From contig NZ_CP136419.1 of assembly GCF_039233145.1 (NCBI RefSeq), positions 966,001 to 1,030,000 on the forward strand: a stretch of 64,000 nucleotides of DNA. Reading direction: 5' to 3'. The translations under genes were made by a program, and so were the position numbers. How positions within the stretch are numbered: position 1 is the stretch's first letter; the number at the start of each line of letters is the position of its first letter. Of the stretch, positions 12,920-57,447 are shown in pieces. Below the pieces are notes generated by a model. That model was not told the DNA's origin and made no database searches. It saw only the letters and a program-made list of their open reading frames with translations. This DNA comes from Moorella humiferrea. Its GTDB lineage: Bacteria; Bacillota; DSM-521; Neomoorellales; Neomoorellaceae.

Positions 12920-12921
12920 AG

Positions 12922-12951: not shown

Positions 12952-12986
12952 ATTCGCTGTGTTAGTGCAGGAAAGGAGGGGTTGCG

Positions 12987-13331: not shown

Positions 13332-13343
13332 CATAGCCACACA

Positions 13344-13376: not shown

Positions 13377-13396
13377 CTAATAGGGGGCGTTAACCG

Positions 13397-13945: not shown

Positions 13946-13953
13946 GTGGCATT

Positions 13954-14769: not shown

Positions 14770-14847
14770 TGCTATAATGTTTTTGAAAAATGATGTGCCA
14801 AAAGTCAAAAAACTTACCCGGTCCATGAAACAGGGAAGGTGAAGATT

Positions 14848-15516: not shown

Positions 15517-15525
15517 GTGAAAAAA

Positions 15526-16164: not shown

Positions 16165-16236
16165 ATATGGCGAATATGTTAATGAGTATTGCTTAAGTTC
16201 AAATTCCTGGACCTAAAATGGGAAGGGGGGATCAAG

Positions 16237-38756: not shown

Positions 38757-38772
38757 TGGCACGAATATTGCA
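38757..38772 (+). promoter_or_regulatory. Sigma-54 (−24/−12) promoter of Mo operon 1
   Basis: TGGCACG-AATA-TTGCA, a full match to the RpoN consensus with GG and GC ten bases apart. Lies 91 bases before the zinc ribbon gene. The cognate activator is most likely the sigma-54 activator at 43413–45491. Confidence 0.9.
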
Positions 38773-39152: not shown

Positions 39153-41396
39153 ATGAGTACCGCAAAGAAACCGTGGACCTGGGAAGAAGACGGTTATACT
39201 GTAACGAGAACCTGTGCCTGGTCACCGCCCGGATGCCACCCTGTAGGATGCGGCCTAAAGCTGTATGTTAAAGATAATAGGCTGGTAAAAGTAGAGGGAG
39301 ATCCTGATCATCCAATCAGCCAGGGCCGGCTCTGCATCAGGTGCTTAAGCCTTCCCGAATATGTACATCACCCCCAGAGAATTATCTATCCTATGAAAAG
39401 GGTTGGTGAGAGAGGAGAAAACAAGTGGCAGCGCATATCCTGGGATGAAGCATGGGACATCATAGTTGATAAAGTCCAGGATATAAAAGCTAAATATGGT
39501 CCGGAATCGATAGTAGTGTACGGTGGAACCGGAAGACAGGCCTGCTTATACTATTATCCGCTCGGCTTCGCTGCCCTAGGCACACCAAATGTATGTTATC
39601 CTCTCAGCGGATGGTCCTGTTATGGCCCCAGGTGCGCCATTACACAATACGTATTTGGTACGGGATACCCAGAAATCGATTTTGCTGGTTACTACCCGGA
39701 CCGCTATGACCACCCGGGCTGGAAGCTACCTGAGTGTATAATTATCTGGGGCAAAGATCCAATAAAATCGAATCCCGATGGCTTGTACGGCCATGCCATT
39801 GTGGACATGATGAAGAGGGGCACCAAGCTCATCGTAGTCGATCCCAGACTGACCTGGCTCGCCTCTCGGGCGGAATACTGGCTGCAACTGAGGCCTGGTA
39901 CGGACGCAGCTTTGGCTCTGGGAATGCTTCATGTAATCATCAATGAAGGGCTTTACGATAAGGATTTCGTAGAGAAGTGGTGCGCCGGATTTGATGATTT
40001 GAAACAGCGTGTTCAGGAATACCCGCCGGAGAAGGTGGCGGAAATAACCTGGGTACCAAAGGAAAAAATTGTGGAGGCCGCAAGGTTTTTTGCCAGGAGC
40101 AAACCTGCCAGCATAACCTGGGGTCTGGCGGTGGATGAAAATCCCAACGGAGTACAGGTAGGTCACGCCGTACTATCTTTGGCGGCGGTAACTGGTAATA
40201 TAGACGTGCCTGGTGGTATCACCATTGGACCGCCGGCAGCGCTGCTCGGAAAATGGCGCGTTGAGACACGGCTAGAGTTAACAGAAGAGCTGTGGAACAA
40301 GAGAATAGGAGCGCAAGAATATCCGGCACTGGCCAATGCATTAGCAACTACTCACCCTGACGTAACACTGGATGTCCTAGAAACTGGAAAACCCTACCCG
40401 ATTAAGATGGCATGGTTCAACAGCACCAATCTCATTTCGCCGACTTGTTCAACTGCTCCCGACAGGTGGTACAGGGCTCTTAAAAATATGGAATTTGCTG
40501 TAGCAACTGATACCTTTATGACGCCTACGGCCATGGCCTTTGCCGATATATTCCTGCCCCTTTCTACCTTCGCCGAACACGACGGCATTGTGCTAACCCA
40601 CTTCGGCCGGAATACCATATTTGTCGGAGCTATTAATAAGGCCCTGCAGGTTGGTGAGTGTAAGTCCGATATCGAGATTTGCCTTGAACTGGGCAAACGC
40701 CTCAACCCAAAGGCTTGGCCGTGGAATGATGTAAAAGAATTCTTCACCTCCCAATTGAAGCCCGAGCTAGGTATAACCTTTGATGAACTGAAGGAGCAGG
40801 TTGTTGTCCATCCGCCGTACGAATACCGGAAGTATGAGACAGGCAAGCTACGGCCCGACGGCGAGCCTGGCTTCATGACACCTTCAGGGAAGATTGAACT
40901 GTACTCGACGCTGTTTGAGATGTGGGGCGACGATCCGCTGCCTTACTTTGAAGAACCTCCTTATAGCCCGTATAGCACTCCGGAACTGGCGAAGGAATAT
41001 CCGCTCATTCTAACAACGGGAGCTAGAATGTGGGGTATGTTCCATTCTGAGCACCGTCAGATCCGGACCATACGTGAAATACATTCAGATCCCCTTGTAG
41101 AGATCCATCCGGATACCGCTGCCCAGCTGGGCATAAATGACGGCGACTGGGTCTACATCGAAAATATGTACGGAAAGTGTAAGCAGAAGGCCAAGCTGAC
41201 GGTGGGCATCCACCCGAAGGTTGTCCATGCCCAGCATGGTTGGTGGTTCCCGGAGAAACAGGCTGACGAGCCGAATCTCTTCGGCGTATGGGATGCCAAT
41301 GTAAATCTGCTAGTACCTCATAAGCATATTGGTAAGCTAGGGTTCGGATCTCCCTTAAAGAGTATGATATGTAAAGTCTACAAGGCTGAGGAGTAA
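39153..41396 (+). CDS. Mo/W-bisPGD oxidoreductase, DMSO-reductase superfamily (catalytic subunit 1)
   Basis: 747 residues, ATG behind GAGGAGGAG, no Tat signal, so cytoplasmic. Fe-S domain Cys residues at 21, 28, 33 and 61 (CAWSPPGCHPVGC and GRLCIRC), a wider spacing than the usual C-x2-C-x3-C. Three Mo domains follow: HPQRIIYPMKRVGERG, W-S-C at residue 156 as probable metal ligand, WGKDPIKS, VVDPRLTWLASRAEYWLQLRPGTDAALALGMLHVI and a C-terminal MopB domain (ILTTGARMWGMFHSEHRQI, PHKHIG). Closest known relatives by pattern are acetylene-hydratase-like enzymes and catechol dehydroxylases. Cofactor could be Mo or W. Substrate unknown. Confidence 0.88.
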   Translation: MSTAKKPWTWEEDGYTVTRTCAWSPPGCHPVGCGLKLYVKDNRLVKVEGDPDHPISQGRLCIRCLSLPEYVHHPQRIIYPMKRVGERGENKWQRISWDEAWDIIVDKVQDIKAKYGPESIVVYGGTGRQACLYYYPLGFAALGTPNVCYPLSGWSCYGPRCAITQYVFGTGYPEIDFAGYYPDRYDHPGWKLPECIIIWGKDPIKSNPDGLYGHAIVDMMKRGTKLIVVDPRLTWLASRAEYWLQLRPGTDAALALGMLHVIINEGLYDKDFVEKWCAGFDDLKQRVQEYPPEKVAEITWVPKEKIVEAARFFARSKPASITWGLAVDENPNGVQVGHAVLSLAAVTGNIDVPGGITIGPPAALLGKWRVETRLELTEELWNKRIGAQEYPALANALATTHPDVTLDVLETGKPYPIKMAWFNSTNLISPTCSTAPDRWYRALKNMEFAVATDTFMTPTAMAFADIFLPLSTFAEHDGIVLTHFGRNTIFVGAINKALQVGECKSDIEICLELGKRLNPKAWPWNDVKEFFTSQLKPELGITFDELKEQVVVHPPYEYRKYETGKLRPDGEPGFMTPSGKIELYSTLFEMWGDDPLPYFEEPPYSPYSTPELAKEYPLILTTGARMWGMFHSEHRQIRTIREIHSDPLVEIHPDTAAQLGINDGDWVYIENMYGKCKQKAKLTVGIHPKVVHAQHGWWFPEKQADEPNLFGVWDANVNLLVPHKHIGKLGFGSPLKSMICKVYKAEE

Positions 41397-41449
41397 AAAT
41401 AGAGGGTGGCGGAAACCCGCACCAATAATAGAGATTGGAGGGGAAAGGG

Positions 41450-41785: not shown

Positions 41786-41808
41786 TTAGCTAGCAATGCG
41801 ATAAGTCA

Positions 41809-41855
41809 GGACGGGTCCTGAGGTTGCCCGGGACCCGTCCCGGTTATTTTTACAG
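41809..41855 (+). terminator. Terminator/attenuator after Fe-S subunit
   Basis: Perfect arms GGACGGGTCC (41809–41818) and GGACCCGTCC (41831–41840), then CGGTTATTTTT. Separates the enzyme genes from the transporter gene, which may be expressed at a lower level by readthrough. Confidence 0.75.
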
Positions 41856-41930
41856 TAGGAGTTTTTATTCCATTTTATCTCATAGCAGATAATTTAAAAA
41901 ATCATAAATTATTAGGAGGTGTGTTTGTAA

Positions 41931-43412: not shown

Positions 43413-45491
43413 TTAATATGCTTTATCCAGGTTATACTGTTTTAGTTTTCTATATAGAGTAGATTTACCTAAACCAAGGAGTCTTGCAGCTTTAGGGATG
43501 TTATTACCTGTATAAATCATAGCATTTTGAATAACTATCCTTTCAGCTTCTTTCATTGAGGTTACCCCTTCAATGCTACGAATACCAGCATTTTTCTGGG
43601 TTGTCTCTCTTACTATCTCATTAGGGAGGTGGCGTACGTCGATAATCCCATCTTGAGACATGTTGACAGCATAAATCATAGCATTCTCCAACTGTCTAAC
43701 GTTACCTGGCCATTCATAATTCAAAATTACTTTTTTAGCAGCCGGGCTTATAGTTGGCAATACATGTCCTGTCTTTTTACAGTAGTATTCTATAAAATGC
43801 TGGCATAACAGCAAGATATCTTCCTGTCGCTGTCGCAGGGGCGGTATTTCTAGCTTGAGAACCGCCAGCCGGAAGTACAGGTCGAGACGAAACTGATTTT
43901 CTTGCACCATCTGGTAAAGATTTTTGTTAGTTGCAGCTATAACGCGGAAGTCAACAGGAATATACTTCCTGCCTCCCAGCCGCATTACGCGCTTGTCCTC
44001 TAAAACCCTAAGCAACGTGGCCTGGGTTTCAATGGGCATATCGCCTATTTCGTCAAGGAAAAGCGTCCCTTTGTGAGCCAGCTCAATTTTGCCTGGTCTT
44101 CCATTGCGTTCGGCACCCGTAAAGGTTCCGCCTTCATAGCCAAAGAGCTCGCTTTCAATGAGGTTTCTGGGAATCGCAGAACAGTTCAAAGCAACGAAAG
44201 GACCTTCAGGCCGGTATTGATTGTGAATAGCCTGGGCAAATAGCTCCTTTCCGGTGCCGCTCTCTCCTATTAATAAAATATTTTCGCCGGCATCGGCGAA
44301 CTTACGGGCCAAGTCTTTTGCATGGTTTATGCAGGCGCTGTTGCCAATAATATCATCAAAGTGATACTTGGCCACTGCACCAGTTCGCACATTAACAAGG
44401 TTATTGATTTTTTCAGACAGGTTGACACGGATAATGGCTCCTTCGGTGCGTTTTTCTTTCTGGCCTGGTATAAATTGTATGCTAAATACGCAGTGGCGTT
44501 CCTTTTTGCAGTTGCGAATAGTTGCTTCCAGGTAATTAACAGGTTTCTGGCTTGTTAATACCTGCATTACCCTGTCGTCCACAAAGTCCCTAATGTATCT
44601 GCCTTCGACTTTGTCGCCACTGGGAGAAAGCATAAGGGCTGCCTCCCGGTTGGCCTTAATAATCTTATTATCACAATCGAGGGCTATAACTCCAGCGTCG
44701 ATGCAGGAGAGAATTGTTTCCAATGTATTATTCATAACCAGTAACCTGCGGTTTTTTTCTTCTAGTTTCAGACTGTTTTCTATAGCTACTGCCAGGGAAG
44801 CAACCCATCCCAGGGTATGGGATAATAAGTTTTTAAGATTTTTTTCCCAGGGCCGTTCTCCTAATGCCTGTACCAGCGTCAGGGTACCGATAAGGTTACC
44901 TTTTTCGTCCATAATGGGAGCGGCAGAACAGATTGTATTCTCCAGGGTTATGCAATAATGTTCCGGGCCAATTAATTGAACCGGACATTTCAAGATCATA
45001 CTGAGTCCGTGGGCGATAGTTCCTGAAGTTGCTTCGTTCCACACAGCCCCAATGACTGCATTTATTGATTTGAAATAAGAAATTTCATTGTCGTCTCCAT
45101 CGAGGTAGAGAATGGTGCCGTTGGCATTATGGAGACATAACATGTATCCGGAAATTTTAAGAAGATGTTTAAAGGCATCTATCAAGGTTTTAGTAGTTGA
45201 AATTAACATACTGTTTTCTAAAAGGATAGCTTCCAGGTCATCTTTCGATATGTTATGCCCGATTTTTTTAGCAAATGGATCGATTTTAAATTTGTATGAT
45301 CTTAACCAGGAATCGGCGACTACCGGGGTTAAACAAGGGAAATTCCGAGGGTCTTCATTATAATAGATAAATCTTTGCTTACATTGGCGAATCTCTTGCC
45401 AGCGGCGTTGGAATAAATCATTGTCCACAGAATTTAATATAAAATTACTCTGGTTATCGTAACAGGCTATATCAGTCCTGATGATTTCCAT
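43413..45491 (-). CDS. Sigma-54-dependent activator (GAF–PAS–AAA+–Fis)
   Basis: 692 residues from the ATG at 45491 (AGGAGG six bases upstream; the longer frame adds a spurious hydrophobic stretch). Order: AcoR-like N-terminal region and GAF (about 85–235), PAS (about 250–350), AAA+ (about 375–610) with Walker A GESGTGKE, the sigma-54 contact loop as GGTFTGA (variant of GAFTGA) and Walker B GTLFLDEIGDM, then a Fis-type helix-turn-helix (NNIPKAARLLGLGKSTLYRKLKQ). The GAF domain probably senses the inducer. Lies between two operons with sigma-54 promoters and is the only such activator in the window, so it likely controls both. Confidence 0.94.
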   Translation of the reverse strand: MEIIRTDIACYDNQSNFILNSVDNDLFQRRWQEIRQCKQRFIYYNEDPRNFPCLTPVVADSWLRSYKFKIDPFAKKIGHNISKDDLEAILLENSMLISTTKTLIDAFKHLLKISGYMLCLHNANGTILYLDGDDNEISYFKSINAVIGAVWNEATSGTIAHGLSMILKCPVQLIGPEHYCITLENTICSAAPIMDEKGNLIGTLTLVQALGERPWEKNLKNLLSHTLGWVASLAVAIENSLKLEEKNRRLLVMNNTLETILSCIDAGVIALDCDNKIIKANREAALMLSPSGDKVEGRYIRDFVDDRVMQVLTSQKPVNYLEATIRNCKKERHCVFSIQFIPGQKEKRTEGAIIRVNLSEKINNLVNVRTGAVAKYHFDDIIGNSACINHAKDLARKFADAGENILLIGESGTGKELFAQAIHNQYRPEGPFVALNCSAIPRNLIESELFGYEGGTFTGAERNGRPGKIELAHKGTLFLDEIGDMPIETQATLLRVLEDKRVMRLGGRKYIPVDFRVIAATNKNLYQMVQENQFRLDLYFRLAVLKLEIPPLRQRQEDILLLCQHFIEYYCKKTGHVLPTISPAAKKVILNYEWPGNVRQLENAMIYAVNMSQDGIIDVRHLPNEIVRETTQKNAGIRSIEGVTSMKEAERIVIQNAMIYTGNNIPKAARLLGLGKSTLYRKLKQYNLDKAY

Positions 45492-45648
45492 ATCAATCCT
45501 CCTATTACATATAAATATCTGGCAGCAAAGAAATAAAAGGAAATATGTAAATAAGGAACAGAGTTCAGATCCTTTAGAAGACAATCCACCCTATTAATAA
45601 ATCACCCTTTATTGCTAAATCACCCCCGGATAGTAACTCTATTGCATG

Positions 45649-45871: not shown

Positions 45872-45887
45872 TGGCATGATTTTTGCA
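45872..45887 (+). promoter_or_regulatory. Sigma-54 (−24/−12) promoter of Mo operon 2
   Basis: TGGCATG-ATTT-TTGCA, with GG and GC ten bases apart. 193 bases before the second Mo enzyme start. Together with the operon 1 promoter it marks an RpoN regulon. Confidence 0.88.
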
Positions 45888-46079: not shown

Positions 46080-48275
46080 ATGGCTGGTAACATTGAAGTC
46101 AAAAAGGCAGCATGCTATTTCTGCCATATGAACTGCGGCATGCTGGTGCACGTTGAAGACGGTGTCGTAAAAAAAGTAACGGGCGATCCGGAGCATCCCT
46201 TTAACCAGGGGGCACAATGTCCCCGGGGTGCCTCGGCTATCGATCACCTCAATCACATCAACCGGGTAAACTATCCCCTTAAACGTGTCGGCGAACGGGG
46301 ATCTGGTAATTTTAAGCGTGTCAGCTGGGAGGAAGCCCTGGAGGACATTGCCGCCCGGCTAAAAAAATACAAAGCGGAATATGGTGCGGAAAGCATCGCC
46401 ACTGCCGGGGGCACCAACCGTACTGACGATTGGGCCAGGCGCCGCTTTTTTAATCTATTGGGGAGCCCCAATGTGGTCCACACCTCACCCGTTTGCTGGA
46501 TACCCAATTTTTTAATAGAAACGGCCATTTACGGCTGGAGCGCCTTTGACCCGGAGATTATGGGCAGCCGTTGCGTCGTCGTCTGGGGCCATAATCCTGG
46601 TGCTTCGTATTTACCGGAAATGCGGGGGCTTTTAGAGGCCCGGGAAAAGAACGGTACCAAAATCATTGTCATTGACCCACGTTACAGCGAGACGGCAGCC
46701 CGGGCCGACATTTGGTTACCCATCCGCCCGGGGAGTGACTGCGCCCTGGCCCTGGCCTGGCTTAACGTCATTATCAATGAAGAGCTCTATGACGCCGATT
46801 TCGTCGAGAACTGGACGGTGGGCTTTGAGGAACTGCGGGAACGGGTGCAGGAGTATACCCCGGAATGGGCGGAAGCAAAGACCTGGGTGCCCGCCGAAAG
46901 GATAGCAATGGCGGCCAGGACGTACGCCACATCGAGGCCTGCTTGTATCCAGTGGGGGGTAGCCACCGACCAGCTCGGTAGGGCTACCAGTGCCGTTGCC
47001 CAAGCAAGGGCGGTGTTGAGGGCCATTTGCGGTAACCTCGACGTTCCCGGCGGTGATGTCATGCCCGGCCCCCATCCTACATTTATTACTGACGTCGAGA
47101 TGGAGCTCAACGAATTGCTGCCCGAGGAGCAGCGGGCAAAGCAACTGGGCGCGGACAGGTTTAAACTCAGCACCTGGCCGGGTTACAAGCTTCTAAATGA
47201 GCAGCTACAGCGTGTCTGGGGAAAGGGTCTGCCGGCCGAGTGGATGTGCGAGGCCAGTCCACCTGTACTGTGGCGCGCCATCTTAACCGGTAAACCCTAT
47301 CCGGTAAAAGCGCTGATCGTCCTTGCTGATAACCCCCTTAGCTCTTATGCCAACTCCAGGCTGGTATATGAAGCCCTCAACAAGCTGGACCTGCTGGTGG
47401 TCATGGACTACTGGCTTACGCCCACGGCCGCGCTGGCCGACTATGTCTTGCCGGCTGCCTCCTGGCTGGAACGGCCGGTCTTGACGACAACCTATGGGGT
47501 ATCCGACTGGCTCATCGCTTCGGAAAGGGCCATCCAGCCTTTATACGAACGTAAAACCGACTACGATTTCTGGCGCGCCCTGGGTATCAAGATGGGCCAG
47601 GGTGAATACTGGCCGTGGCAGACCAACGAAGAGGTGTTCCAGTACCGCCTGGAATCGCTGGGGTACGGCCTCGAAACCTATGAAGATTTTGTCAGGGGGG
47701 TACGTTTCGACTTTGCCCCGCGCGAGTACTACAAGTACCTGGAAAAAGGTTTTGCCACGCCCTCCGGGAAGGTGGAGCTGAAAAGTTCAATACTGGAAAC
47801 GCTGGGCTATGACCCGTTACCCCATTACGTTGAGCCGCCGTTCAGTCCGGAAGCTACCCCGGAGCTGGCCCGGGATTATCCTCTGATACTCATCGCAGGC
47901 GGAGGCTTTATGCCCTTTTTCCATTCCGAACACCGCCAGATAACGCGCCTGCGTCTGCTGCACCCGGAACCCCGGGTGGCCATTAACCCTGAACTGGCTC
48001 AAAAGCTTGCTATTAAAGAAGGCGATTGGGTGTGGATTGAAACCCCGAAGGGTAAAGTCAAGCAAAGGGCTAAAATCACTACAGCCGTACCGCCCGGGGT
48101 AGTCCAGGCGGAACGGGGATGGTGGTATCCGGAAAAAGGGGTAAAAGACCTGTTTGGCATCTGGGAGTCCAATATCAATGTTTGCCTGGATGACGACCCG
48201 GATACCTGCGATCCAGCCTGCGGCAGCTGGTGCACCAGAACGATTTTATGCCGGATTGCTAAAGTGGAAGGGTGA
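46080..48275 (+). CDS. Mo/W-bisPGD oxidoreductase, DMSO-reductase superfamily (catalytic subunit 2)
   Basis: 731 residues from the ATG at 46080 (GCGGAGG upstream); no Tat signal. N-terminal [4Fe-4S] site canonical: C12, C15, C19, C47 (CYFCHMNCG … AQCPRG). Probable metal ligand C139 in SPVCWIPN, close to the position of the tungsten ligand Cys141 in acetylene hydratase. Further motifs: WGHNPGAS, VIDPRYSETAARADIWLPIRPGSDCALALAWLNVI, DYWLTPTAALADYVLPAASWLER, GGGFMPFFHSEHRQ. Paralogous to the operon 1 enzyme. With the next two genes it makes a three-subunit membrane-bound complex facing the cytoplasm. Substrate unknown. Confidence 0.9.
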   Translation: MAGNIEVKKAACYFCHMNCGMLVHVEDGVVKKVTGDPEHPFNQGAQCPRGASAIDHLNHINRVNYPLKRVGERGSGNFKRVSWEEALEDIAARLKKYKAEYGAESIATAGGTNRTDDWARRRFFNLLGSPNVVHTSPVCWIPNFLIETAIYGWSAFDPEIMGSRCVVVWGHNPGASYLPEMRGLLEAREKNGTKIIVIDPRYSETAARADIWLPIRPGSDCALALAWLNVIINEELYDADFVENWTVGFEELRERVQEYTPEWAEAKTWVPAERIAMAARTYATSRPACIQWGVATDQLGRATSAVAQARAVLRAICGNLDVPGGDVMPGPHPTFITDVEMELNELLPEEQRAKQLGADRFKLSTWPGYKLLNEQLQRVWGKGLPAEWMCEASPPVLWRAILTGKPYPVKALIVLADNPLSSYANSRLVYEALNKLDLLVVMDYWLTPTAALADYVLPAASWLERPVLTTTYGVSDWLIASERAIQPLYERKTDYDFWRALGIKMGQGEYWPWQTNEEVFQYRLESLGYGLETYEDFVRGVRFDFAPREYYKYLEKGFATPSGKVELKSSILETLGYDPLPHYVEPPFSPEATPELARDYPLILIAGGGFMPFFHSEHRQITRLRLLHPEPRVAINPELAQKLAIKEGDWVWIETPKGKVKQRAKITTAVPPGVVQAERGWWYPEKGVKDLFGIWESNINVCLDDDPDTCDPACGSWCTRTILCRIAKVEG

Positions 48276-48280
48276 AAGCA

Positions 48281-48823
48281 ATGCACTGGGGAATGGTTAT
48301 CGACTTGCGCAGGTGCATCGGCTGCCATGCTTGCACCGTTGCCTGCCAGGTTGAGAATAAACTGCCATTAAATGAACGCTGGAATAAAGTGTTTACCGTA
48401 GGGCCTGAAGGGGAATTCCCTCTGGTGACCTCACACTTTTTGCCGCGGCCGTGTATGCACTGCCAGGATGCCCCTTGTGTCGATGGCTGTCCTACCGGGG
48501 CCAGCCAGAGACGGCCCGACGGGATTATCATTGTCCACGGCGAGCGTTGCATTGGCTGCAAGTTCTGCATGCTGGTATGCCCCTACGGGGTGCGCCAGTT
48601 CGCGGCAGAGAAGGGCATCGTGCAGAAGTGCCACCTGTGTTATGAACGGCTGGAGCGGGGAGAAATGCCCCGCTGTGTCGAAACCTGCCAGCTGAAAGCC
48701 CGCCATGCCGGTGATTTAGACGACCCCGGCAGCGAAGTGACGGCACTTATTAAACAGGCTAATGCCCGGCCGTTGTACCCATATCTGGGTACGAAACCCT
48801 CGGTGTATTATATTTTTCCCTAG
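48281..48823 (+). CDS. Four-cluster [4Fe-4S] electron-transfer subunit (DmsB/PsrB type)
   Basis: 180 residues from the ATG at 48281 (GAAGGGTGA upstream; a GTG at 48272 overlaps the previous stop). Four Cys groups: CIGCHACTVACQ, CMHCQDAPCVDGCPTG, CIGCKFCMLVCPYG, CHLCYERLERGEMPRCVETC, the standard set for four [4Fe-4S] clusters. Passes electrons between the catalytic subunit and the membrane subunit that follows after 12 bases. Confidence 0.94.
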   Translation: MHWGMVIDLRRCIGCHACTVACQVENKLPLNERWNKVFTVGPEGEFPLVTSHFLPRPCMHCQDAPCVDGCPTGASQRRPDGIIIVHGERCIGCKFCMLVCPYGVRQFAAEKGIVQKCHLCYERLERGEMPRCVETCQLKARHAGDLDDPGSEVTALIKQANARPLYPYLGTKPSVYYIFP

Positions 48824-48835: not shown

Positions 48836-49795
48836 ATGGAGGATAAACAGGCAATTTGGGGCGGGCTGGCTGCCGGTTACTTCTTTTGCGCCGCCTTCGG
48901 GGCCATGGTTTTTGCCGTCATCGCTTTTCTGGATATTATAACCTCGCCCCTTGCCGGTGAGGTAAGTGGTACCGGTAGTTTCCTGGGCCTGGTAGCTGCC
49001 GGCCTGGGCGGCCTGTTATTACTTGCCGAGCTGGGCAATAAAAAGCGATTTCTTTTAGTTTTCAGCCGTATGCAGTCAATTATGACTAAAGGCGCCCTGT
49101 TTTTAAGCTGCTTCATAGTACTGGCGGCAATATATACCAGCTTTTGGTTTGATATCTTTCCCTGGGCCGGGGAAAATGCCGGGCGGCGGATTATCGGGTT
49201 CCTGGGCATAATTTTTGCCGTGGCCCTGGTAATTTACCCGGGTTTAGAGCTGGGCGAAGCCCGGGGCCGCTCCTTCTGGAACGGCAGCGCCCTGGTGCCC
49301 CTGTGGCTGGCGGCAGCCCTTACTTCCGGTTTGGCCGGCGTAATCCTGGTGGCGGCGGTAACCGGGACGTCGCCAGCACCAACTATTGCTATTCTGGATA
49401 AAGTCCTCCTGGCCTTGATCATCACCCAGATAATCTTAATCGCGACTTATATCCTGGGGATGCGCCAGTCGGCGCCGGAGGAAGCCCGCCGGTCGACGGC
49501 AATGCTCCTCACCGGCAAGTTGAAAAATATTTTCTGGTGGGGGATTGTTATTTGTGGTCACCTCATCCCTTGCCTCCTTTACTTCGGTGGCAGCGGCGCT
49601 GGTATCCTGGCGGTAAAATCATTGTTTGTTCTGGCAGGGGAAGTCTGCCTGCGAGTTGCATTTCTCCAGGCCGGCGTCCGGGTAAGCCTTCCCGGTGAAG
49701 ATAACGAGTGGTACCAGGAAGAGGAAATAGCCGTCCTGGCCGCACGTCTGGAGCAGACATGGCAGGAAAGGGCGGCCTGGCTTAATGGCAAATAA
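48836..49795 (+). CDS. NrfD/PsrC/DmsC-type membrane anchor
   Basis: 319 residues with about eight hydrophobic segments. NrfD-type polytopic quinone-interacting anchor, haem-free. Start after TAGGAGG. Signature stretches YFFCAAFGAMVFAVIAFLDI and IFWWGIVICGHLIPCLLYF. The C-terminal tail is charged and probably cytoplasmic. Completes the A–B–C complex; overlaps the GNAT gene by 11 bases. Confidence 0.85.
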   Translation: MEDKQAIWGGLAAGYFFCAAFGAMVFAVIAFLDIITSPLAGEVSGTGSFLGLVAAGLGGLLLLAELGNKKRFLLVFSRMQSIMTKGALFLSCFIVLAAIYTSFWFDIFPWAGENAGRRIIGFLGIIFAVALVIYPGLELGEARGRSFWNGSALVPLWLAAALTSGLAGVILVAAVTGTSPAPTIAILDKVLLALIITQIILIATYILGMRQSAPEEARRSTAMLLTGKLKNIFWWGIVICGHLIPCLLYFGGSGAGILAVKSLFVLAGEVCLRVAFLQAGVRVSLPGEDNEWYQEEEIAVLAARLEQTWQERAAWLNGK

Positions 49796-50273
49796 TTTGC
49801 GGGCACGGGCGGAAGTGACCCTGGCCAGGCCTGAAGACGGCCCGGAGTTACAGGCATTATTGCAGGACTGGGGGATGGACCTGGCCGGGGAACCGGAAGA
49901 ACACGCTGTGATCAAGGTGGACGGGAGAATTTTTGCGGGAGGTAAAATAACCTGGCTGGGGGAAAATTCTTTTCACCTGGAATTGCTGGCGGTGAAGAGA
50001 GAAGCCAGGGGCCAGGGATTAGGAGGAATGTTGCTTTTGGAGTTAATAAAAAAGCCCTGGGCCTACTGTGGCAGTTTGCTGAACGGGAAGTTTAGTACTT
50101 ATCGCGTTACGAATATTGCCAGGGGGGAAGCGGCAGGGTTTTACCGCCAGTACGGCTTTCGCCACTGTCTTTTTTCCGACCTAGCAAAAGCTTACCAGGA
50201 GCAGTGCGACGGTTGCCCGGAGAGGGAAGCTTGCCGGCCGGTGCCCATGATTTATATACAGGAGGTTAGTTAG
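49785..50273 (+). CDS. GNAT acetyltransferase with Cys-rich tail
   Basis: 162 residues. GNAT fold with HLELLAVKREARGQGLGGMLLLELIKK (acetyl-CoA loop RxxGxG/A), GFYRQYGFRHC; the C-terminal CDGCPEREAC may bind metal. Start lies within the end of the anchor gene, indicating coupling. It may modify a protein of the complex or a small molecule; unknown. Confidence 0.78.
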   Translation: MANNLRARAEVTLARPEDGPELQALLQDWGMDLAGEPEEHAVIKVDGRIFAGGKITWLGENSFHLELLAVKREARGQGLGGMLLLELIKKPWAYCGSLLNGKFSTYRVTNIARGEAAGFYRQYGFRHCLFSDLAKAYQEQCDGCPEREACRPVPMIYIQEVS

Positions 50274-51116
50274 TTGCGCCAAGCATTAATTGTCTTCACT
50301 AAAGTCCCCAGGAAAGGTGATATTAAGACCCGTCTGACAAAGGAAAAAGGCGGGATTTTAACACCCGAAGAAGCGAAAATTCTCTATGAGGCCTGTCTCC
50401 TTGATGTTATCGAAGTTGCCATGGCGGCCTGCGAGGACGAGGGTGCCGAACTCTGGATCTGTCATGATGCCGCCGGCGACGGCGCCTACCTCCAATCCCT
50501 CCTTAAAAGCCTGGCCCATCCGGAAAAGGTAAAGGGTGTCTTTGCCGACAGGGGTGGTTCCTTCGATGACTGCATGCAGTTTGCTGCCGATTATATTCTC
50601 AAACCGCAAGAGGAAACAAGAAAGGCCGATAGTGTTATTATCATCGGCGGGGATTTACCGACGCTGCAGCCGGTTACCCTGAAAAAAGCTTTTACCGCGT
50701 TAGCCAGGTTCAGTCAAAGCGAGGCCGGACGGGAAGCAGTGTGGCAGGCTGGTAGCCATTCCACACCGGACATGGGGGCGGCCCTTGTCGAGGCGCCATG
50801 CCAGGAGGGGGGATTTTCCCTGGTAGGCTATACCAGGACTACACCCTTTGATTTTTACGGCGTATTTTACAACAGCGATGGCATAACGGCCCTCGATATG
50901 CTGGTTAATAAAGCGGTGGCAAAAAAGATACCTTTTGCCGCCCTGGAGATGGTTCCCGATATAGATATCCCCATCGATTTAGCAAGCATCATTCCCGTAC
51001 TGCGTTCCCTGGAACTTGCCGCTGCGACTGATGCTGACGTGATGGTGCCCCGCCGCACCATGGCAGTCCTGAGGGAGCTGGGTCTTGAAGCCACCGCCCT
51101 GCCGCCGGAGCGTTAG
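50274..51116 (+). CDS. DUF2064/TIGR04282-type glycosyltransferase- or nucleotidyltransferase-fold protein
   Basis: 280 residues, TTG start after AGGAGG, directly abutting the GNAT stop. Family hallmarks: LIVFTKVPRKGDIKTRLTK at the N-terminus, IIIGGDLPTLQP with the DxD-like metal site, GGFSLVGYTRTTPFDFYGV, and VPDIDIPIDLASIIPVL near the end. The fold is shared by MobA, CofC and arsenosugar-associated transferases, so it could activate or attach a cofactor or sugar. Its place in a Mo-enzyme operon makes a cofactor role worth testing. Confidence 0.75.
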   Translation: MRQALIVFTKVPRKGDIKTRLTKEKGGILTPEEAKILYEACLLDVIEVAMAACEDEGAELWICHDAAGDGAYLQSLLKSLAHPEKVKGVFADRGGSFDDCMQFAADYILKPQEETRKADSVIIIGGDLPTLQPVTLKKAFTALARFSQSEAGREAVWQAGSHSTPDMGAALVEAPCQEGGFSLVGYTRTTPFDFYGVFYNSDGITALDMLVNKAVAKKIPFAALEMVPDIDIPIDLASIIPVLRSLELAAATDADVMVPRRTMAVLRELGLEATALPPER

Positions 51117-51187
51117 CGGATTGTCTGGTGATTGATCGCATTAATTAAAAAGACAAATTATGACCAAGTTAACAAATCAAGGAAAGG

Positions 51188-52318
51188 ATGGATGACTTGA
51201 ACGTTGCCAGAGAGGTCGCCGGCAGCGGTGATGGGCCGCGCCGGGAAATAGCAGAAAAATGTACTGCCTGTGGTCAATGTATTGCTTCATGCCTGCTATT
51301 GGAGGAGATTGGCGAAGCCCCCCTTGAGATTGCCGGTCGGGGAGCAACAGTAGAGGAAGCTTTTTCCTGCACCCTATGCGAACTATGCACCGCTGTATGC
51401 CCGGCAGGCCTGTCCCCGGCGGGCATGTTTGCCGCTAAACGCACCGAAGCAGTAGCAAACGGAGAATTTCCTATATACGATTATCGCTACCTTTACCCGG
51501 ACCGGGAGCTTAATACTTGCAAACTATACCGCGAAAAGTACAACATTCATTACCAGGAGCTGCCCGTTGATCAAGAAGGCGAGGCAGCCTTTTTCCCGGG
51601 GTGCACTATGTTGACTTATGGATCGGATTTAACCAGGGCTGCCTTTCATCACCTGGCGAGGCTCTGGCCTCGCATGACCCTTTTAACCGACTGCTGTGGT
51701 AAACCCCTTTACCAGATGGGTTTAAAGGAACGCGGGGAAAACTATACTGCCTTCCTTAAAAATAAACTAAAAAAACTGGCTGTAAAGGTATTAATCACCG
51801 CCTGCCCCAACTGTTTTTACGAGCTGCGTAACCAGCTGGCACCAGACGGCATTGAGGTCAGGACCATCTACGAGAACTGGGGATTCGGGGTGGCCGGTAA
51901 AGGATTAATTACCATTCATGATTCCTGTCCTGACCGCCATGAGGGCATCTTTGCCCGGCAGGTACGTGAGGCCTTGAGGAATAGCGGCTACCGCTTGGTT
52001 GAGATGGAATACTACGGGGCGAACACCTTCTGTTGTGGCAGCGGCGGCCAGGTAAGCCACTTTCGTCCTGACCTGGCCATGGCCCTGACCGACCGCCGCC
52101 TGGAAGAGGCAGGTAATACCGGAGCCGGGATCCTGGCTGGATACTGCTTGAGCTGCGTTCTTAATTTCGCTCGCGATGCCAACGGGCTCAAGGTGCGCCA
52201 TGTCCTCGATTTGTTGCTCGGTCAGGAAAAGGATTACAGTGAAATTAAAAAAAGGGCAAAGGCTCTTTATACCGGGCCCGAAGGTGAAGAAAACTGGCGG
52301 CGGGTAATGGCGGAATAA
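51188..52318 (+). CDS. HdrD/GlpC-like Fe-S oxidoreductase
   Basis: 376 residues from the ATG at 51188 (a TTG at 51197 is also possible). Residues about 20–80: two [4Fe-4S] motifs CTACGQCIASC and CTLCELCTAVCPAG. Two CCG-type cysteine domains follow, with CCGKPLYQMG and CCGSGGQVSH, the pattern of heterodisulfide reductase D and GlpC. May pass electrons to or from a thiol/disulfide or quinone. A 71-base gap precedes it, longer than most gaps in the operon; no terminator seen. Confidence 0.87.
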   Translation: MDDLNVAREVAGSGDGPRREIAEKCTACGQCIASCLLLEEIGEAPLEIAGRGATVEEAFSCTLCELCTAVCPAGLSPAGMFAAKRTEAVANGEFPIYDYRYLYPDRELNTCKLYREKYNIHYQELPVDQEGEAAFFPGCTMLTYGSDLTRAAFHHLARLWPRMTLLTDCCGKPLYQMGLKERGENYTAFLKNKLKKLAVKVLITACPNCFYELRNQLAPDGIEVRTIYENWGFGVAGKGLITIHDSCPDRHEGIFARQVREALRNSGYRLVEMEYYGANTFCCGSGGQVSHFRPDLAMALTDRRLEEAGNTGAGILAGYCLSCVLNFARDANGLKVRHVLDLLLGQEKDYSEIKKRAKALYTGPEGEENWRRVMAE

Positions 52319-52344
52319 CTATTGCAGTAAAGGGAGAGAAACCG

Positions 52345-53301
52345 GTGGATAACCAGCAACTCGCTAGCATTTATAAAGACATATTAGCCCTGCGTTGGGA
52401 GCCGGTAGCAGTGCGGTTACTGCGTCCCAGCGAGGCCATACCCGCAGGGGTTACAGAACCCACGGCAACCTTGCGTCACTGCCAGGCCATTATTGCTGCC
52501 AGGCGGGGGTGGAGTTTGTATATGCCACCGCGCCGGCACGCCTGCCCCGACGGGGCGGCCATTATGGGCCTCATACCCATGCCGCCCAAACTGCAGTCGG
52601 GTGAATTATACCTCCTGTTTAAAAAGCTGCCTACCCTGGAATGTGCCCGGAAGATGATCGCCGTCCGGCCTTGTTTTCCGGCCGGCAGCTACGAGGCCAC
52701 CCTGGTAGCACCTTTGAGTAAAGCCAACTTTGAAGCCGACGTGGTAATCTTCACCCTGTGGCCGGAGCAGGCCATGTGGCTTTGCTGCGCCCAATCGTAT
52801 AACAGCGGTGAACGGCAGGGCTTTAACACCTCGGGTTATAACTCCACCTGTGCCGACCTTACCGTCCAGCCCATGCAGACAGGGAAAATGAATATTTCCT
52901 TCGGTTGTTACGGCAGCCGCGCTGCCAGTGACATAAGCGATTTTGAGCTTTATCTCTCTCTCCCGGCTGCCCAGCTGGAGATTGTGGCTCGTTCGCTGCA
53001 AAAACTGGCACAGAAAAGCATACCTGAAGCGCGCCATAAAATCTATATGCCGCCCGTTATGGAAAAAGTAGGCGTCCAAAAGAAGAATACCTTGGATGTC
53101 CCGGCGATTCAGATCAACATCGATGCTGCCAACTGTTTAGGAGAAGGCCTGTGTGCCGACTTTTGCCCCTACGGCGTGTTCGTTATGGAAGAACAAGACG
53201 GCCGCCCGGTACCAATTGTCAAGAACCCGGAGCGTTGTACTGCCTGCTACACCTGCGTAGGCCAGTGTCCGGCAGGGGTTATCCAGGTTTTGCAGCAATA
53301 G
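52345..53301 (+). CDS. DUF169 protein with C-terminal 2[4Fe-4S] ferredoxin domain
   Basis: 318 residues, GTG start. Residues 1–225 match DUF169 (WEPVAVRLL, LRHCQAII, MPPRRHACPDGAAIMGL, RPCFPAGSYEATLVAPL, SFGCYGSRAASDISDFELYLSLP). Residues about 260–318 hold CLGEGLCADFCP and CTACYTCVGQCPAG. DUF169 proteins are widespread in anaerobes, function undefined, often near redox enzymes. Ferredoxin fusion indicates electron transfer to the DUF169 domain, which may bind a metal cofactor through conserved Cys. Confidence 0.85.
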   Translation: MDNQQLASIYKDILALRWEPVAVRLLRPSEAIPAGVTEPTATLRHCQAIIAARRGWSLYMPPRRHACPDGAAIMGLIPMPPKLQSGELYLLFKKLPTLECARKMIAVRPCFPAGSYEATLVAPLSKANFEADVVIFTLWPEQAMWLCCAQSYNSGERQGFNTSGYNSTCADLTVQPMQTGKMNISFGCYGSRAASDISDFELYLSLPAAQLEIVARSLQKLAQKSIPEARHKIYMPPVMEKVGVQKKNTLDVPAIQINIDAANCLGEGLCADFCPYGVFVMEEQDGRPVPIVKNPERCTACYTCVGQCPAGVIQVLQQ

Positions 53302-53372
53302 TATATCCCGGGGGGTACCGGTCCATAGGTAAAAAGAAGACGTTAATTTTATCTACGGAGGGGACAGCAATT

Positions 53373-54386
53373 TTGGAAAAAAGAATTATAATCAGAGATA
53401 TTCTCAACAAATGCCTGGACGGTGGGATACCTACCAGGGAAGAGGCAATAGCCTTAGTGCAGGTTGAGCTGGACAGCGAAGAATTTTATTCCCTTTGCTA
53501 TGTGGCTAATAAACTTAGCCGGGAGCACTTCGGCAATAAAGGCGATGTCGTTGCCCAGATCGGGCTTGATTATGCTCCTTGCTCCCGCAATTGCGGTTTT
53601 TGTTCTTTCGGTCGTGATGCAGGAGTAGTCAAGGAACGCCTGGAATGGGATACGGATACAGTTGTAAAAGCAGCCCTGGCCATGGTAGAAGCAGGGGCTA
53701 ACGGCATCTACCTCATGACGACGGCTGATTACCCATTCAAGAAATTTATCGCCATTGCTGCCGCAGTACGCGAAGCCGTGGAGGACGATATTCCGTTAAT
53801 AGCTAATATAGGTGATTTTAATTATGAGCAGGCGCAAAAATTAAAGGAGGTTGGTTTTTCCGCCGTTTATCATGCCCTCAGGTTAAGGGAAGGGACAGAT
53901 ACCGGTATTCCCAGAACGAAGCGCGAGGAGACAATTGCCAACGCCAGAGCCGTCGGCCTGGCTGTCCAGGTGTGCCTTGAACCCGTAGGACCGGAGCATA
54001 CTCCCGAAGAAATGGTTGAGCAGATGTTCTGGGCCAGAGAGATTGGCGCCACCTTTAACGGTGCCATGAAAAGGACGGCAGTCCCGGGGACACGCCTGGC
54101 AGGCCTCGGGGAGATATCTTTCCGGGAGTTGGCACGCCTGATTGCCGTTACGCGCCTGGTGATGGGCGACCGGGCCACTGCCCACTGCACCCATGAGCCC
54201 AACCTGCCGGCCCTGATGGCGGGTGCCAACCTTATCTGGGCCGAAGCCGGGCCGAATCCCAGGGATGTCCTGCCTGATACCGCTGCCGGGCGGGGCCAGA
54301 GCGTAAGGAAATGTCAGGAAATACTTTTTGAAGCCGGATACGATCTGCGGCAGGGCGCCACCCCTTCTGCCTATCCTGCCGGTTAA
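53373..54386 (+). CDS. Biotin-synthase-like radical SAM enzyme
   Basis: 337 residues from the TTG at 53373, nine bases after GGAGGGG. Radical SAM cluster motif C-x3-C-x2-C in YAPCSRNCGFCSFG. Barrel similar to BioB/HydE/PylB, with GANGIYLMTTADYPF and a C-terminal region resembling BATS (HCTHEPNLPALMAGANLIWAEAGPNPRD). Not BioB itself: the bio genes are absent and the C-terminal [2Fe-2S] Cys set does not match. Reaction unknown. As the eighth gene of the operon it may make or repair a cofactor or substrate. Confidence 0.83.
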   Translation: MEKRIIIRDILNKCLDGGIPTREEAIALVQVELDSEEFYSLCYVANKLSREHFGNKGDVVAQIGLDYAPCSRNCGFCSFGRDAGVVKERLEWDTDTVVKAALAMVEAGANGIYLMTTADYPFKKFIAIAAAVREAVEDDIPLIANIGDFNYEQAQKLKEVGFSAVYHALRLREGTDTGIPRTKREETIANARAVGLAVQVCLEPVGPEHTPEEMVEQMFWAREIGATFNGAMKRTAVPGTRLAGLGEISFRELARLIAVTRLVMGDRATAHCTHEPNLPALMAGANLIWAEAGPNPRDVLPDTAAGRGQSVRKCQEILFEAGYDLRQGATPSAYPAG

Positions 54387-54402
54387 AGGGGAGGGAGAAA
54401 GA

Positions 54403-55188
54403 ATGGCGGCGACCTTTAAACTCCTCGGTACCGGCGCCGGTCCGGGAGTACCGTCCTTTTATTGCAACTGCATTGCCTGTCAGGAGGCCAGGGAAAATCC
54501 ACGCTTTAGCCGGACACGGAGCGGGGCTATCCTGGATTTGGGAGAGAAGAAAATTCTTATCGACGCGTCGCCGGACTTACGTCACCAGCTTTTGCGAGAA
54601 AAGATTGATGAGCTATCATGTATTTTTCTCACTCACTGGCATTACGACCATTTTGGCGGTTTGGGTGAAGTGGAATTCTATGTTCGGCTGGTACGTCATG
54701 AACCTTTAACCCTCTACCTGCCGCCCAGCGCCGTAGAGGAATATCAGGCCGCCTTTCCGCACCTTCAGGATGTCCTGGTACCTGAACCATGGCAGTTTGG
54801 ACGTTGCTATGACTTTGGCAGGGCGACTCTTACCCCCTTACCGGCCAACCACAGTATCGAAACAGCAGGCATACTCGTGGTGGGGAAAAAGAGCCTTGCC
54901 TACTTTACTGACACCTGTGGCCTGCCGGCGGAAACTTTGCAGCGGGTACAGGGTGTAGACATCCTGATCTGTGACGCCACTTTTCATGGTGAAAACTGGT
55001 ATCCCCATAGCCACATGTCGGTAGAACAGGCCATTGCCCTGGGCCGCGCAACAGGGGCGGGGAAAACGATTCTCAGCCACCTTGCCATGCATTACAGCCA
55101 GGCGGTCACCGTGCGTCAACTGGAGCAAGAAATAGCTTCTTATCCCGGGGTTTCCCTGGCTTTTGACGGCCTGGAGCTAGAACTGTAG
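54403..55188 (+). CDS. PhnP-like metallo-beta-lactamase-fold hydrolase
   Basis: 261 residues from the ATG at 54403 behind GGGGAGGGAG. Opening GTGAGPGVPSFYCNCIACQEARENPRFSRTRSG matches the PhnP/PqqB type with a Cys triad that can hold a structural zinc. Metal site: LTHWHYDHFGG, PANHSIETAGI, ICDATFHGENW, LSHLAMHYS. PhnP cleaves phosphoribosyl cyclic phosphate, but no phn genes are near, so a different cyclic phosphate or ester substrate is likely. Last gene of the operon. Its stop overlaps the converging oxidoreductase gene by 12 bases. Confidence 0.83.
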   Translation: MAATFKLLGTGAGPGVPSFYCNCIACQEARENPRFSRTRSGAILDLGEKKILIDASPDLRHQLLREKIDELSCIFLTHWHYDHFGGLGEVEFYVRLVRHEPLTLYLPPSAVEEYQAAFPHLQDVLVPEPWQFGRCYDFGRATLTPLPANHSIETAGILVVGKKSLAYFTDTCGLPAETLQRVQGVDILICDATFHGENWYPHSHMSVEQAIALGRATGAGKTILSHLAMHYSQAVTVRQLEQEIASYPGVSLAFDGLELEL

Positions 55189-56298
55189 TCCATTTAAGGC
55201 CAACCACGCCTTTTGCGCCCAGGCCGGGTTGGCCAGCAGGGCCCGGCCGATGCCAACCAGATCGGCCCGCCCCTGCCGGATAACCATATCGGCAAACTGG
55301 GGCGTTTTAATGCCACCCGTCACTATAACCGGCACCCTGGCTACAGGTTTGATGGCAGCGGCCATATAGAGGAAGAAACCTTCCGGTCCCTGTTTCATAT
55401 AGCCACCCAGTCCCCCAGAAAGGTCAATAACGTCTACCCCAGCATCTTCCAGCAGGGGGATAATCCGGCAACTTTCTTCAAGATTTAGGCCACCTTCCAT
55501 GCGATCGTCGGCACCCAGGCGGTAAAAAACGGGATAGGCGGGACCGACGGCTTCCCGCACGGCATGGACGACCTCCAGGGGGAAACGCAGGCGGTTTTCC
55601 AGGGAACCACCGTAAGCATCACGGCGGCGGTTGGTGAGGGGTGAAAGAAACTGGTTCAAAAGATAGCCATGGGCGCCGTGGATTTCTACCAGGTCAAAGC
55701 CGGCTTTCTTGGCCCTGGCGGCAGCCAGGGCAAATTTTTCTGTTAACTCTTTAATCTCCTTAACTGTTAGTTCATGGGGGCGTTCTTCAAAGGGGATATA
55801 TAATTCTTCAGCTTTTCCAGGCCCATCTTCTTGATTCTGGGACAATTGCCGGGAACGGCGTGGTAGAAATGGGAGAGGTATGCCTGAAGGGGCCACGGCA
55901 TTTTCCAGGACTCTCGCACCCGCATGGTTGATTTGAATACCGGCAATCGCACCTTCGGAGCGGATCTTAGCTGCCAGCTTAGTAAGGCCGGGTAAGAGAC
56001 GGTCATGGTAAATACCTAGTTGTTTGGGATGGGCCTGGCCTTCCTCGCTAATATAAGCATGTTCTACAATGATGAGGCCTACACCGGCGCGGGTGTTCGC
56101 CCCGGCAAACTTTTGTCCAGCGTCATAGGTGCTGCCACCATGATAAGCCCTGGCCCGGAGGGTGTAGTGTTCAAGCATTTCCGGGGTTATCTCGCCCTCG
56201 GAAGCAGCGATGCCGAGGGCCATGGGGGGCATGACTATACGGTTGGGTAAGATAAGGTCTTTGACTTTCACTGGGGAAAATAAATGAATATTAGTCAT
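55177..56298 (-). CDS. NADH:flavin oxidoreductase, Old Yellow Enzyme family
   Basis: 373 residues, ATG behind TTGGAGAGG. FMN barrel: LFSPVKVKDLILPNRIVMPPMA, IQINHAGAR, GFDLVEIHGAHGYLLNQFLSPLTNRRRDAYGGSLENR (active-site HGAH), GGIKTPQFADMVIRQGRADLVGIGRALLANP. Lacks the C-terminal Fe-S/FAD domains of 2,4-dienoyl-CoA reductases, so it is a single-domain ene-reductase; substrate unknown. Convergent with the PhnP-like gene, sharing 12 bases. Confidence 0.9.
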   Translation of the reverse strand: MTNIHLFSPVKVKDLILPNRIVMPPMALGIAASEGEITPEMLEHYTLRARAYHGGSTYDAGQKFAGANTRAGVGLIIVEHAYISEEGQAHPKQLGIYHDRLLPGLTKLAAKIRSEGAIAGIQINHAGARVLENAVAPSGIPLPFLPRRSRQLSQNQEDGPGKAEELYIPFEERPHELTVKEIKELTEKFALAAARAKKAGFDLVEIHGAHGYLLNQFLSPLTNRRRDAYGGSLENRLRFPLEVVHAVREAVGPAYPVFYRLGADDRMEGGLNLEESCRIIPLLEDAGVDVIDLSGGLGGYMKQGPEGFFLYMAAAIKPVARVPVIVTGGIKTPQFADMVIRQGRADLVGIGRALLANPAWAQKAWLALNGLQF

Positions 56299-56455: not shown

Positions 56456-56676
56456 ATTTGATGCAAAAATAATTTTCAAGTGTAATCGCCCCCTATCTGA
56501 ATTCCTTGAAGATCCCTTAAAGCGGGAGGTGCGCGTAAAGACAAGTTACGAAAAGATTAGGGATGCTGGTCGGAGAAGGAGGAAAATGTTATATGGTTGT
56601 AGAACCTATAGTGGCACGGTTAGACAAGGATAAAGTATTGCGGTAGAAAATACTGTTGAAATGTGAAATAAGGGTG

Positions 56677-57447
56677 ATGGTTACGCCGGTGGTAGAAATT
56701 TTAGTGTTCTTTTTTTTATCGGCAGCCGGATTCCTAGCGGGATTTGTCGATTCGGTCGTTGGCGGTGGGGGGTTGATTTCCGTTCCGGCCCTTTTGCTTT
56801 GCGGTGTGTCACCCAGTGTGGTTTTAGGAACGAACAAACTCGCCGGGACCATGGCTACCTTAACCAGTACCATTTCCTTTGCCGCTTCCGATAAGGTAAA
56901 CTTCTCGCTGATTAAATATCTTTTCCCCTTTTCTCTGCTGGGAGCGACCTTGGGCGCCCATATGGTTAAATATATTCCCTCCCAGATTTTAAAACCGCTA
57001 ATAATTGTGCTGCTCATTTGTGTAAGCATTTATACCTTACGCAAGAAAGATTGGGGTTCTATTTCCACCTATGCCGGCAGAAACAAAAAAAATATTTGGC
57101 TGGGTGCTGCTGTGGCGGCTGGGCTAGGTTTTTATGATGGTTTTTTTGGCCCCGGAACCGGGTCATTTTTAATCTTTGCTTTTCTTCAGTTCGGTTTTGA
57201 TTTTGTGGTTGCCGCAGGTAATGCCAAAGTCTTAAATTTTGCCAGCAACATAGCTTCCCTGGCCACTTTTATACTAATGGGCGCTGTAAATTATAGTTAT
57301 GGTATAACCATGGGGATTACCATGGTTATTGGAGCGTTGCTCGGTTCCCGGTTGGCAATCACTAAAGGGACGGCCTTTGTCCGTTTGATGTTTATCGCCA
57401 TAACCTTGCTTTTAGTAGGTAAGCAGGTCTGGGATTTATTGCATTAA
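56677..57447 (+). CDS. TauE/SafE-family sulfite/anion exporter-like permease
   Basis: 256 residues from the ATG at 56677 (weak AAGGG site; the in-frame GTG or TTG upstream add 1–7 residues). About eight membrane segments in two repeats: FLAGFVDSVVGGGGLISVPALLLCGVSP and AAGLGFYDGFFGPGTGSFLIFAFLQFG, the twin motifs of the family. Members export or import sulfite, sulfoacetate, sulfonates or similar anions. Standing divergent to an ene-reductase; substrate not known. Confidence 0.88.
   Translation: MVTPVVEILVFFFLSAAGFLAGFVDSVVGGGGLISVPALLLCGVSPSVVLGTNKLAGTMATLTSTISFAASDKVNFSLIKYLFPFSLLGATLGAHMVKYIPSQILKPLIIVLLICVSIYTLRKKDWGSISTYAGRNKKNIWLGAAVAAGLGFYDGFFGPGTGSFLIFAFLQFGFDFVVAAGNAKVLNFASNIASLATFILMGAVNYSYGITMGITMVIGALLGSRLAITKGTAFVRLMFIAITLLLVGKQVWDLLH

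Follow-up and report, generated by a model that had tools for sequence, protein, structure and literature searches.

In this study, we analyzed a stretch of 64,000 nucleotides from Moorella humiferrea (G000:C1:966001-1030000; genome size 2.67 Mb), hereafter called the window, and focused on six accessory genes at 49785-55188 that lie directly behind a molybdenum (Mo) enzyme complex. We found that five of them, encoding a GNAT acetyltransferase, a long DUF2064 protein, an HdrD-like protein, a DUF169-ferredoxin fusion and a PhnP-like hydrolase of the metallo-β-lactamase (MBL) fold, are a conserved set, while the sixth, encoding a BioB-like radical S-adenosylmethionine (SAM) protein, is an optional module and not part of the core. 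The locus can tentatively be read as a sigma-54-controlled operon for a membrane-attached cytoplasmic oxidoreductase (MoA2-FeS2-NrfD) of the molybdenum/tungsten (Mo/W) bis-molybdopterin guanine dinucleotide (bis-MGD) type, belonging to the acetylene hydratase/catechol dehydroxylase clade, followed by the accessory set. Our analysis defines this set as a sigma-54-controlled one in four bacterial families, tied to that clade, and offers a testable functional context for DUF169 and long DUF2064 proteins. Numbers beginning with G, L and f are our own handles for genomes, loci and families.

Conservation of the gene set

The searches covered one phylum, with a sample of 299 genomes. The full DUF169-ferredoxin fusion, counted at 55% identity or more, was present in 9 of the 299 genomes and the long DUF2064 in 10, with 9 genomes in common, an overlap of about 2e-16 by a hypergeometric count that ignores shared ancestry. 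When family-level searches and Moorella stamsii were added, the carriers of the fusion came to 15 genomes from four families. The HdrD-like and DUF169-ferredoxin genes are adjacent in 13 of these 15, and the GNAT and DUF2064 genes in 10; the DUF169-ferredoxin and MBL genes are also neighbors in 10, and the radical SAM gene intervenes in 2 more. The full set is found with the Mo complex within about 10-20 kb in Moorellaceae, G070 and G223, and it is rearranged or split in Desulfitobacteriaceae-like genomes. In G305, the long DUF2064 gene stands between the genes for MobB and a MOSC protein. Linkage to MoA2 was judged from the carriers of the DUF169-ferredoxin fusion and the long DUF2064, using a simple open reading frame (ORF) caller for the relatives; G083 and G118 were too fragmented for their gene order to be judged in full.

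The original prediction expected the six genes to be conserved with the Mo enzyme across genera and not to be broken apart at random in relatives. The first part was borne out for the five-gene core, which is conserved across families too, but not for the BioB-like radical SAM gene, which is replaceable, is missing from G124 (a complete genome in which the core set is present) and is common elsewhere without the Mo complex. The second part stood, as the split parts keep to the same region and carry the same type of sigma-54 promoter.

The closest named relative of the window genome is M. stamsii (L006), whose radical SAM protein is 96% identical. In M. stamsii, the GNAT-DUF2064-HdrD block shares only 78-80% identity with the window, against 89-95% for its flanks, so that the operon is a recombination mosaic.

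Organization of the locus

All six ORFs were confirmed in one direction behind the Mo complex, with gaps of -11 to +71 bp. As predicted, no terminator-like site on the + strand separates the six genes, and the sole one in the stretch lies inside the DUF169 gene. The features of the locus are as follows.

38757..38771, + strand: sigma-54 type -24/-12 element TGGCACGAATATTGC, 5' of the first (soluble-type) Mo operon (MoA1)
39153..41396, + strand: MoA1, Mo/W bis-MGD catalytic subunit of the acetylene hydratase clade; best PDB match 2e7z, 354 bits
41435..41785, + strand: FeS1, small 4Fe-4S partner of MoA1; the MoA1-FeS1 pair is also found in L074, L084, L093 and L096
41931..43322, + strand: transporter of the SLC13/DASS type, labelled from reading the sequence and not from a family-library scan
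43413..45584, - strand: sigma-54-dependent activator (PAS, sigma-54 activation AAA+, Fis helix-turn-helix), divergent from the MoA2 operon; homologues at most clusters
45872..45886, + strand: sigma-54 type -24/-12 element TGGCATGATTTTTGC, presumed to drive the entire MoA2-to-MBL operon; conserved 5' of MoA2 in relatives
46080..48275, + strand: MoA2, acetylene-hydratase-like catalytic subunit, predicted cytoplasmic; the start in the ORF list is 46014
48272..48823, + strand: FeS2, multi-cluster ferredoxin subunit (TtrB/DsrO-like by domain and family scans)
48836..49795, + strand: NrfD-family membrane subunit, by domain scan
49785..50273, + strand: GNAT acetyltransferase, core; 11 bp overlap with the NrfD gene; GNAT 1.6e-9
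50274..51116, + strand: long DUF2064, core; 0 bp gap to GNAT; DUF2064 2.9e-15
51188..52318, + strand: HdrD-like, core; 71 bp gap; two CCG domains plus 4Fe-4S, 2.9e-21
52345..53301, + strand: DUF169-ferredoxin fusion, core and the most diagnostic accessory gene; 26 bp gap; DUF169 1.4e-60, two 4Fe-4S sites
53373..54386, + strand: BioB/HydE/PylB-like radical SAM, optional; 71 bp gap; TTG start; Radical_SAM 1.2e-7
54403..55188, + strand: PhnP-like MBL-fold hydrolase, core; 16 bp gap; ATG start; Lactamase_B_2 1.9e-27

A longer radical SAM ORF from 53151 is mechanical, and the TTG start at 53373 was taken instead. The gene next after the MBL gene, at 55177-56298, is convergent and encodes an old yellow enzyme. 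Near the operon, at 56656-57447, lies a TauE/SafE-type permease gene (a label from reading the sequence); in Desulfovibrio G20, a DUF169 gene adjoins a TauE gene (PMC4001038).

A predicted sigma-54 regulon

An exact TGGCAT-N5-TTGC element precedes MoA2 at 45872-45886, and another element precedes MoA1 at 38757. In the 26 cluster loci (425 kb, including a few overlaps), 46 exact TGGCAY-N5-TTGC sites were counted against 1.7 expected (the largest of 15 resamples gave 5), and nearly all of them are intergenic. Control loci with only radical SAM or true TrsS genes had far fewer, namely 11 sites in 28 loci of about 500 kb. A stricter pattern gave 19 sites in the whole window genome and 3 for the reversed control.

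These sites are found before MoA2 in Moorella and others. They also precede GNAT in G124, G314, G304 and G305, the four genomes in which the accessory operon lies apart from MoA2, as well as the DUF169-ferredoxin gene in G042 and the radical SAM gene in G070 and G344. Further sites stand before the genes of MobB, MoaA, a molybdopterin-binding protein, a nucleoside hydrolase and a flavin reductase. Because exact elements lie before the Mo genes and, in genomes with separate accessory genes, before those as well, the two groups form one predicted regulon. The separated accessory genes keep the same promoter type, and therefore a function with the Mo enzyme is favored over a chance neighborhood.

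The molybdenum enzyme

The best solved relative of MoA2 is acetylene hydratase (2e7z), with 491 bits over the full length, and the runner-up is polysulfide/thiosulfate reductase (PsrA) with 275 bits. The Cys of MoA2 that aligns with the metal-ligand Cys of 2e7z is invariant across the aligned MoA2 sequences. On the other hand, the position of Asp13 of acetylene hydratase, beside the cluster Cys, is His in every MoA2 sequence aligned, and that of Lys48 is Arg in nearly all; Asp13 is the catalytic Asp of acetylene hydratase. MoA2 as a strict acetylene hydratase was rejected owing to the invariant His. None of the members has a twin-arginine translocation (TAT) motif (RRxF/L) among its N-terminal 45 residues, so MoA2 is expected to stay in the cytoplasm.

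Among bis-MGD enzymes, MoA2 thus has acetylene hydratase as its nearest relative. The catechol dehydroxylases likewise group nearest to that enzyme in PMC7028382, where homologues of theirs are reported from Desulfitobacterium. According to the same paper, the catalytic subunit of the soluble catechol dehydroxylases of Gordonibacter is TAT-less and is accompanied by a small protein of the 4Fe-4S type and by a transporter, and the MoA1-FeS1-transporter genes (39153-43322) share this layout. MoA2 resembles the Eggerthella enzymes described there in its Fe-S and membrane partners; unlike those membrane-type enzymes, it has no TAT signal, and it comes with an accessory set of which the consulted passages of that paper make no mention. 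A catechol-type substrate is our most economical guess, based on the clade placement of the catechol dehydroxylases and the Gordonibacter-type layout of MoA1. MoA2 would most likely act on an aromatic (catechol-type) compound in a redox or dehydroxylation reaction rather than hydrate acetylene.

Genes for a corrinoid protein and a URO-D-type methyltransferase were seen near acetylene-hydratase-like Mo genes (L093, 16142-18702; L083, 350-973), hinting at methoxylated aromatics that feed catechols. A second type of catalytic subunit, A', about 40% identical to MoA2, was observed in Desulfitobacteriaceae-like clusters (L074-L075, L091-L092, L096-L098 and L139), which also hold a trigger-factor-like chaperone, a nucleoside hydrolase, an APH-type kinase and a YnjB-type ABC transporter.

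The core accessory proteins

The domain assignments made from the sequence by the original prediction hold in family scans. The GNAT protein has an invariant C-terminal QC..C.....C motif. The long DUF2064 has, by sequence, a CofC/TIGR04282-like nucleotidyl/glycosyltransferase fold and shares the KTRL and GGDLP motifs of that superfamily, but it is longer (280 aa) and scores under both cut-offs. It reached 71 bits against the TIGR04282 arsenosugar transferase (cut-off 134), and arsenosugar synthesis by the operon was rejected on this score. The HdrD-like protein has two 4Fe-4S sites and two CCG domains, and it aligns to the C-terminal half of NF045663 with 151 bits (cut-off 530). No relative of DUF169 was found in the PDB.

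The MBL protein resembles PhnP (3g1p; E 1.7e-24) in its HWHYDH sequence (the HxHxDH site) and in Cys21, Cys23 and Cys26, all invariant in 13 sequences; these cysteines presumably match the structural Zn site of PhnP. It differs from PhnP in that it scores 110 bits against the NCBIfam cut-off of 272 and no phosphonate genes were seen in the cluster. Membership in the GPMC system (NF038231) was rejected, with 128 bits against 360. Plasmid searches with the DUF169-ferredoxin and DUF2064 proteins gave no matches. The literature searches, including those for DUF169 with radical SAM and DUF2064, turned up no described pathway with this gene set, which agreed with the original prediction.

The radical SAM gene as an exchangeable module

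The best named family of the radical SAM protein is BioB, with 66 bits, far under the cut-off of 225. The cysteines of the CX3CX2C motif are the sole invariant ones in 29 homologues, and the auxiliary-cluster cysteines of BioB were not found; BioB-type sulfur insertion was thus rejected. A role as lipoyl synthase (LipS1/LipS2) was rejected too, as the protein showed no significant similarity (E 0.6 or worse) to a LipS-like pair of this genome that has lipoate-ligase-like genes as neighbors. In L167 (G000:C1:2303000-2322900), at 11163-16285, a second radical SAM pair resembling LipS1/LipS2 is accompanied by two proteins of lipoate-ligase-like type and by a GcvH-like lipoate-binding protein, next to a further Mo enzyme unit that carries sigma-54 elements.

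Elsewhere, relatives of the radical SAM protein accompany SsuABC-type transporters and PadR regulators, or TIGR04282/TIGR04283 transferases. Four BioB-like paralogues lie within about 17 kb of L137-L138 (G301:C2:293000-332800), where SsuABC transporters and GTPase-like proteins of the G3E type are encoded too. In the tree, the radical SAM proteins of Mo clusters fall in three places, that is, the window with M. stamsii; G098, G285 and G187; and G070 with G344. The starred branches force at least 2 changes, and the gene would have joined the Mo locus separately about three times. The copy of G223 reads as two overlapping frames and is possibly broken or an assembly error. In the clusters of f5 and f43, the Mo genes have a different, TrsS-like radical SAM gene (332-363 bits) as their neighbor.

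Comparison of 53301-55188 of the window with L037 and L038 indicated a foreign replacement of the radical SAM-MBL end. The DNA identity between the window and G098 is 88% in the DUF169-ferredoxin gene, none in the radical SAM gene, partial (69.5%) in the MBL gene and 94% in the next gene. Because identity drops over the pair and is high on both flanks, the lineage to which the window and M. stamsii belong exchanged the MBL-radical SAM end seen in sister species for a foreign radical SAM-MBL pair. The two genes were replaced as a unit, which suggests that their products work together.

Proposed role of the accessory set

We lean, without much confidence, towards the view that the accessory genes are dedicated to the Mo enzyme and serve its maturation, the tailoring of its cofactor and electron transfer. 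This is preferred mainly because two Mo enzyme classes, unrelated to each other, appear to carry partly homologous helper sets, as detailed below. The divergent activator would sense the substrate and switch the operon on, and NrfD/FeS2 would connect MoA2 to menaquinone. HdrD and the DUF169-ferredoxin may provide a second electron route, thiol- or ferredoxin-linked. DUF2064, GNAT, the PhnP-like hydrolase and the radical SAM protein (BioB-like in the window, TrsS-like elsewhere) would serve to mature the enzyme or to tailor its cofactor, for example through transfer, modification and trimming of a group linked to a nucleotide or sugar, and the growth substrate would not be converted. The original prediction gave the set a cofactor- or substrate-building role, which is likewise something that we infer. 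It is rather unlikely, in our judgement, that GNAT, DUF2064, the PhnP-like hydrolase and the exchangeable radical SAM protein build an undescribed cofactor or modified molybdopterin for the acetylene-hydratase-clade enzyme, with HdrD and the DUF169-ferredoxin supplying electrons and the TrsS/DVU_155x set as the counterpart for the xanthine oxidase family.

Several points weigh against a maturation role. Any Mo enzyme produced in large amounts would be expected to have genes for the molybdenum cofactor in its regulon. DUF2064 scores far under every named family cut-off, and the AlphaFold models, made from two sequences (window and M. stamsii), gave no usable structure (predicted local distance difference test score 54 for DUF2064 and 30 for the DUF169-ferredoxin). 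In f5 and f29, moreover, the region and the sigma-54 regulon also hold a nucleoside hydrolase, an APH/thiamine-kinase-like protein, a YnjB-type ABC transporter, an old yellow enzyme and a flavin reductase, which fits catabolism better.

The main rival reading, doubtful but not far behind, is that the accessory enzymes convert a specific growth substrate, such as an aromatic compound linked to a nucleoside, sugar or phosphate, ahead of the step of the Mo enzyme or following it, and that the Fe-S proteins simply carry electrons. Corrinoid O-demethylase-type genes near the acetylene-hydratase-like Mo genes of G301 and G098 would agree with this, as would the SsuABC-type transporter directly after the radical SAM gene in the Moorella clusters of G098 and G285. 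However, the transport and nucleoside genes are absent from the Moorella clusters and G070, where the five-gene core is kept, and the core resembles the set around a different Mo enzyme class.

We regard it as improbable that only HdrD and the DUF169-ferredoxin are partners of the Mo complex and that GNAT, DUF2064, MBL and radical SAM serve a separate pathway (e.g., of arsenosugar type, or for a thiol or sulfonate) under a shared regulator. DUF2064 is distantly TIGR04282-like, and BioB-like radical SAM proteins elsewhere accompany TIGR04282/TIGR04283 and C-GCAxxG proteins, or SsuABC transporters; but the adjacencies of GNAT with DUF2064, of HdrD with DUF169-ferredoxin and of the latter with MBL recur in the carriers, no ArsS or ArsM genes were seen in the core clusters, and the TIGR04282 cut-off was not reached. 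That the radical SAM protein is a LipS1/LipS2-type lipoyl synthase or a true BioB-type sulfur-insertion enzyme is hardly credible given its E values and cysteines, even with BioB as its best named family.

Comparison with the TrsS/DVU_155x system

The DVU_1551-1557/TrsS system corresponds to NCBIfam NF045645, NF045646 and NF045663-NF045669, and the paper behind these families is reportedly that of Haft and Tolstoy from 2025. One family of this system bears the name "XdhC family aldehyde oxidoreductase maturation factor", and the second-best family of DVU_1551 is MocA, a MocA-like nucleoside triphosphate (NTP) transferase. True TrsS loci of the same phylum have the order molybdopterin-binding protein, xanthine-oxidase-family enzyme, NF045663, DVU_1557, DVU_1556, DVU_1555, TrsS, DVU_1553, XdhC-type maturation factor and DVU_1551. 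One TrsS homologue above the cut-off, in L112 (G283:C153:12515-13807), has one in-frame TGA, likely a selenocysteine codon.

The two systems differ in the class of Mo enzyme, which is of the xanthine oxidase family in the TrsS system and acetylene-hydratase-like in the window-type clusters. The xanthine-oxidase-family aldehyde oxidoreductase and the XdhC-type maturation factor of true TrsS loci were not found among the called genes of the window-type clusters, nor were the AMP-CoA ligase, the DVU_1556 methyltransferase and DVU_1555. The window-type set adds GNAT, the DUF169-ferredoxin and MBL, and the HdrD of the window is without the pyridine-nucleotide half of NF045663. No TrsS was found in the window genome at E 1e-40, and the TrsS-like homologues of the clusters score under the TrsS cut-off of 490.

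On the other hand, both systems have a Mo enzyme, an HdrD-like dicluster protein, a protein with an NTP-transferase fold and a molybdopterin-binding protein, the last of which occurs, on the side of the window-type clusters, in two relatives of the window cluster at 48-54% identity. The clusters of f5 and f43 share the TrsS-type radical SAM protein as well. Taken together, this parallel points to an undescribed accessory chemistry that molybdoenzymes have in common.

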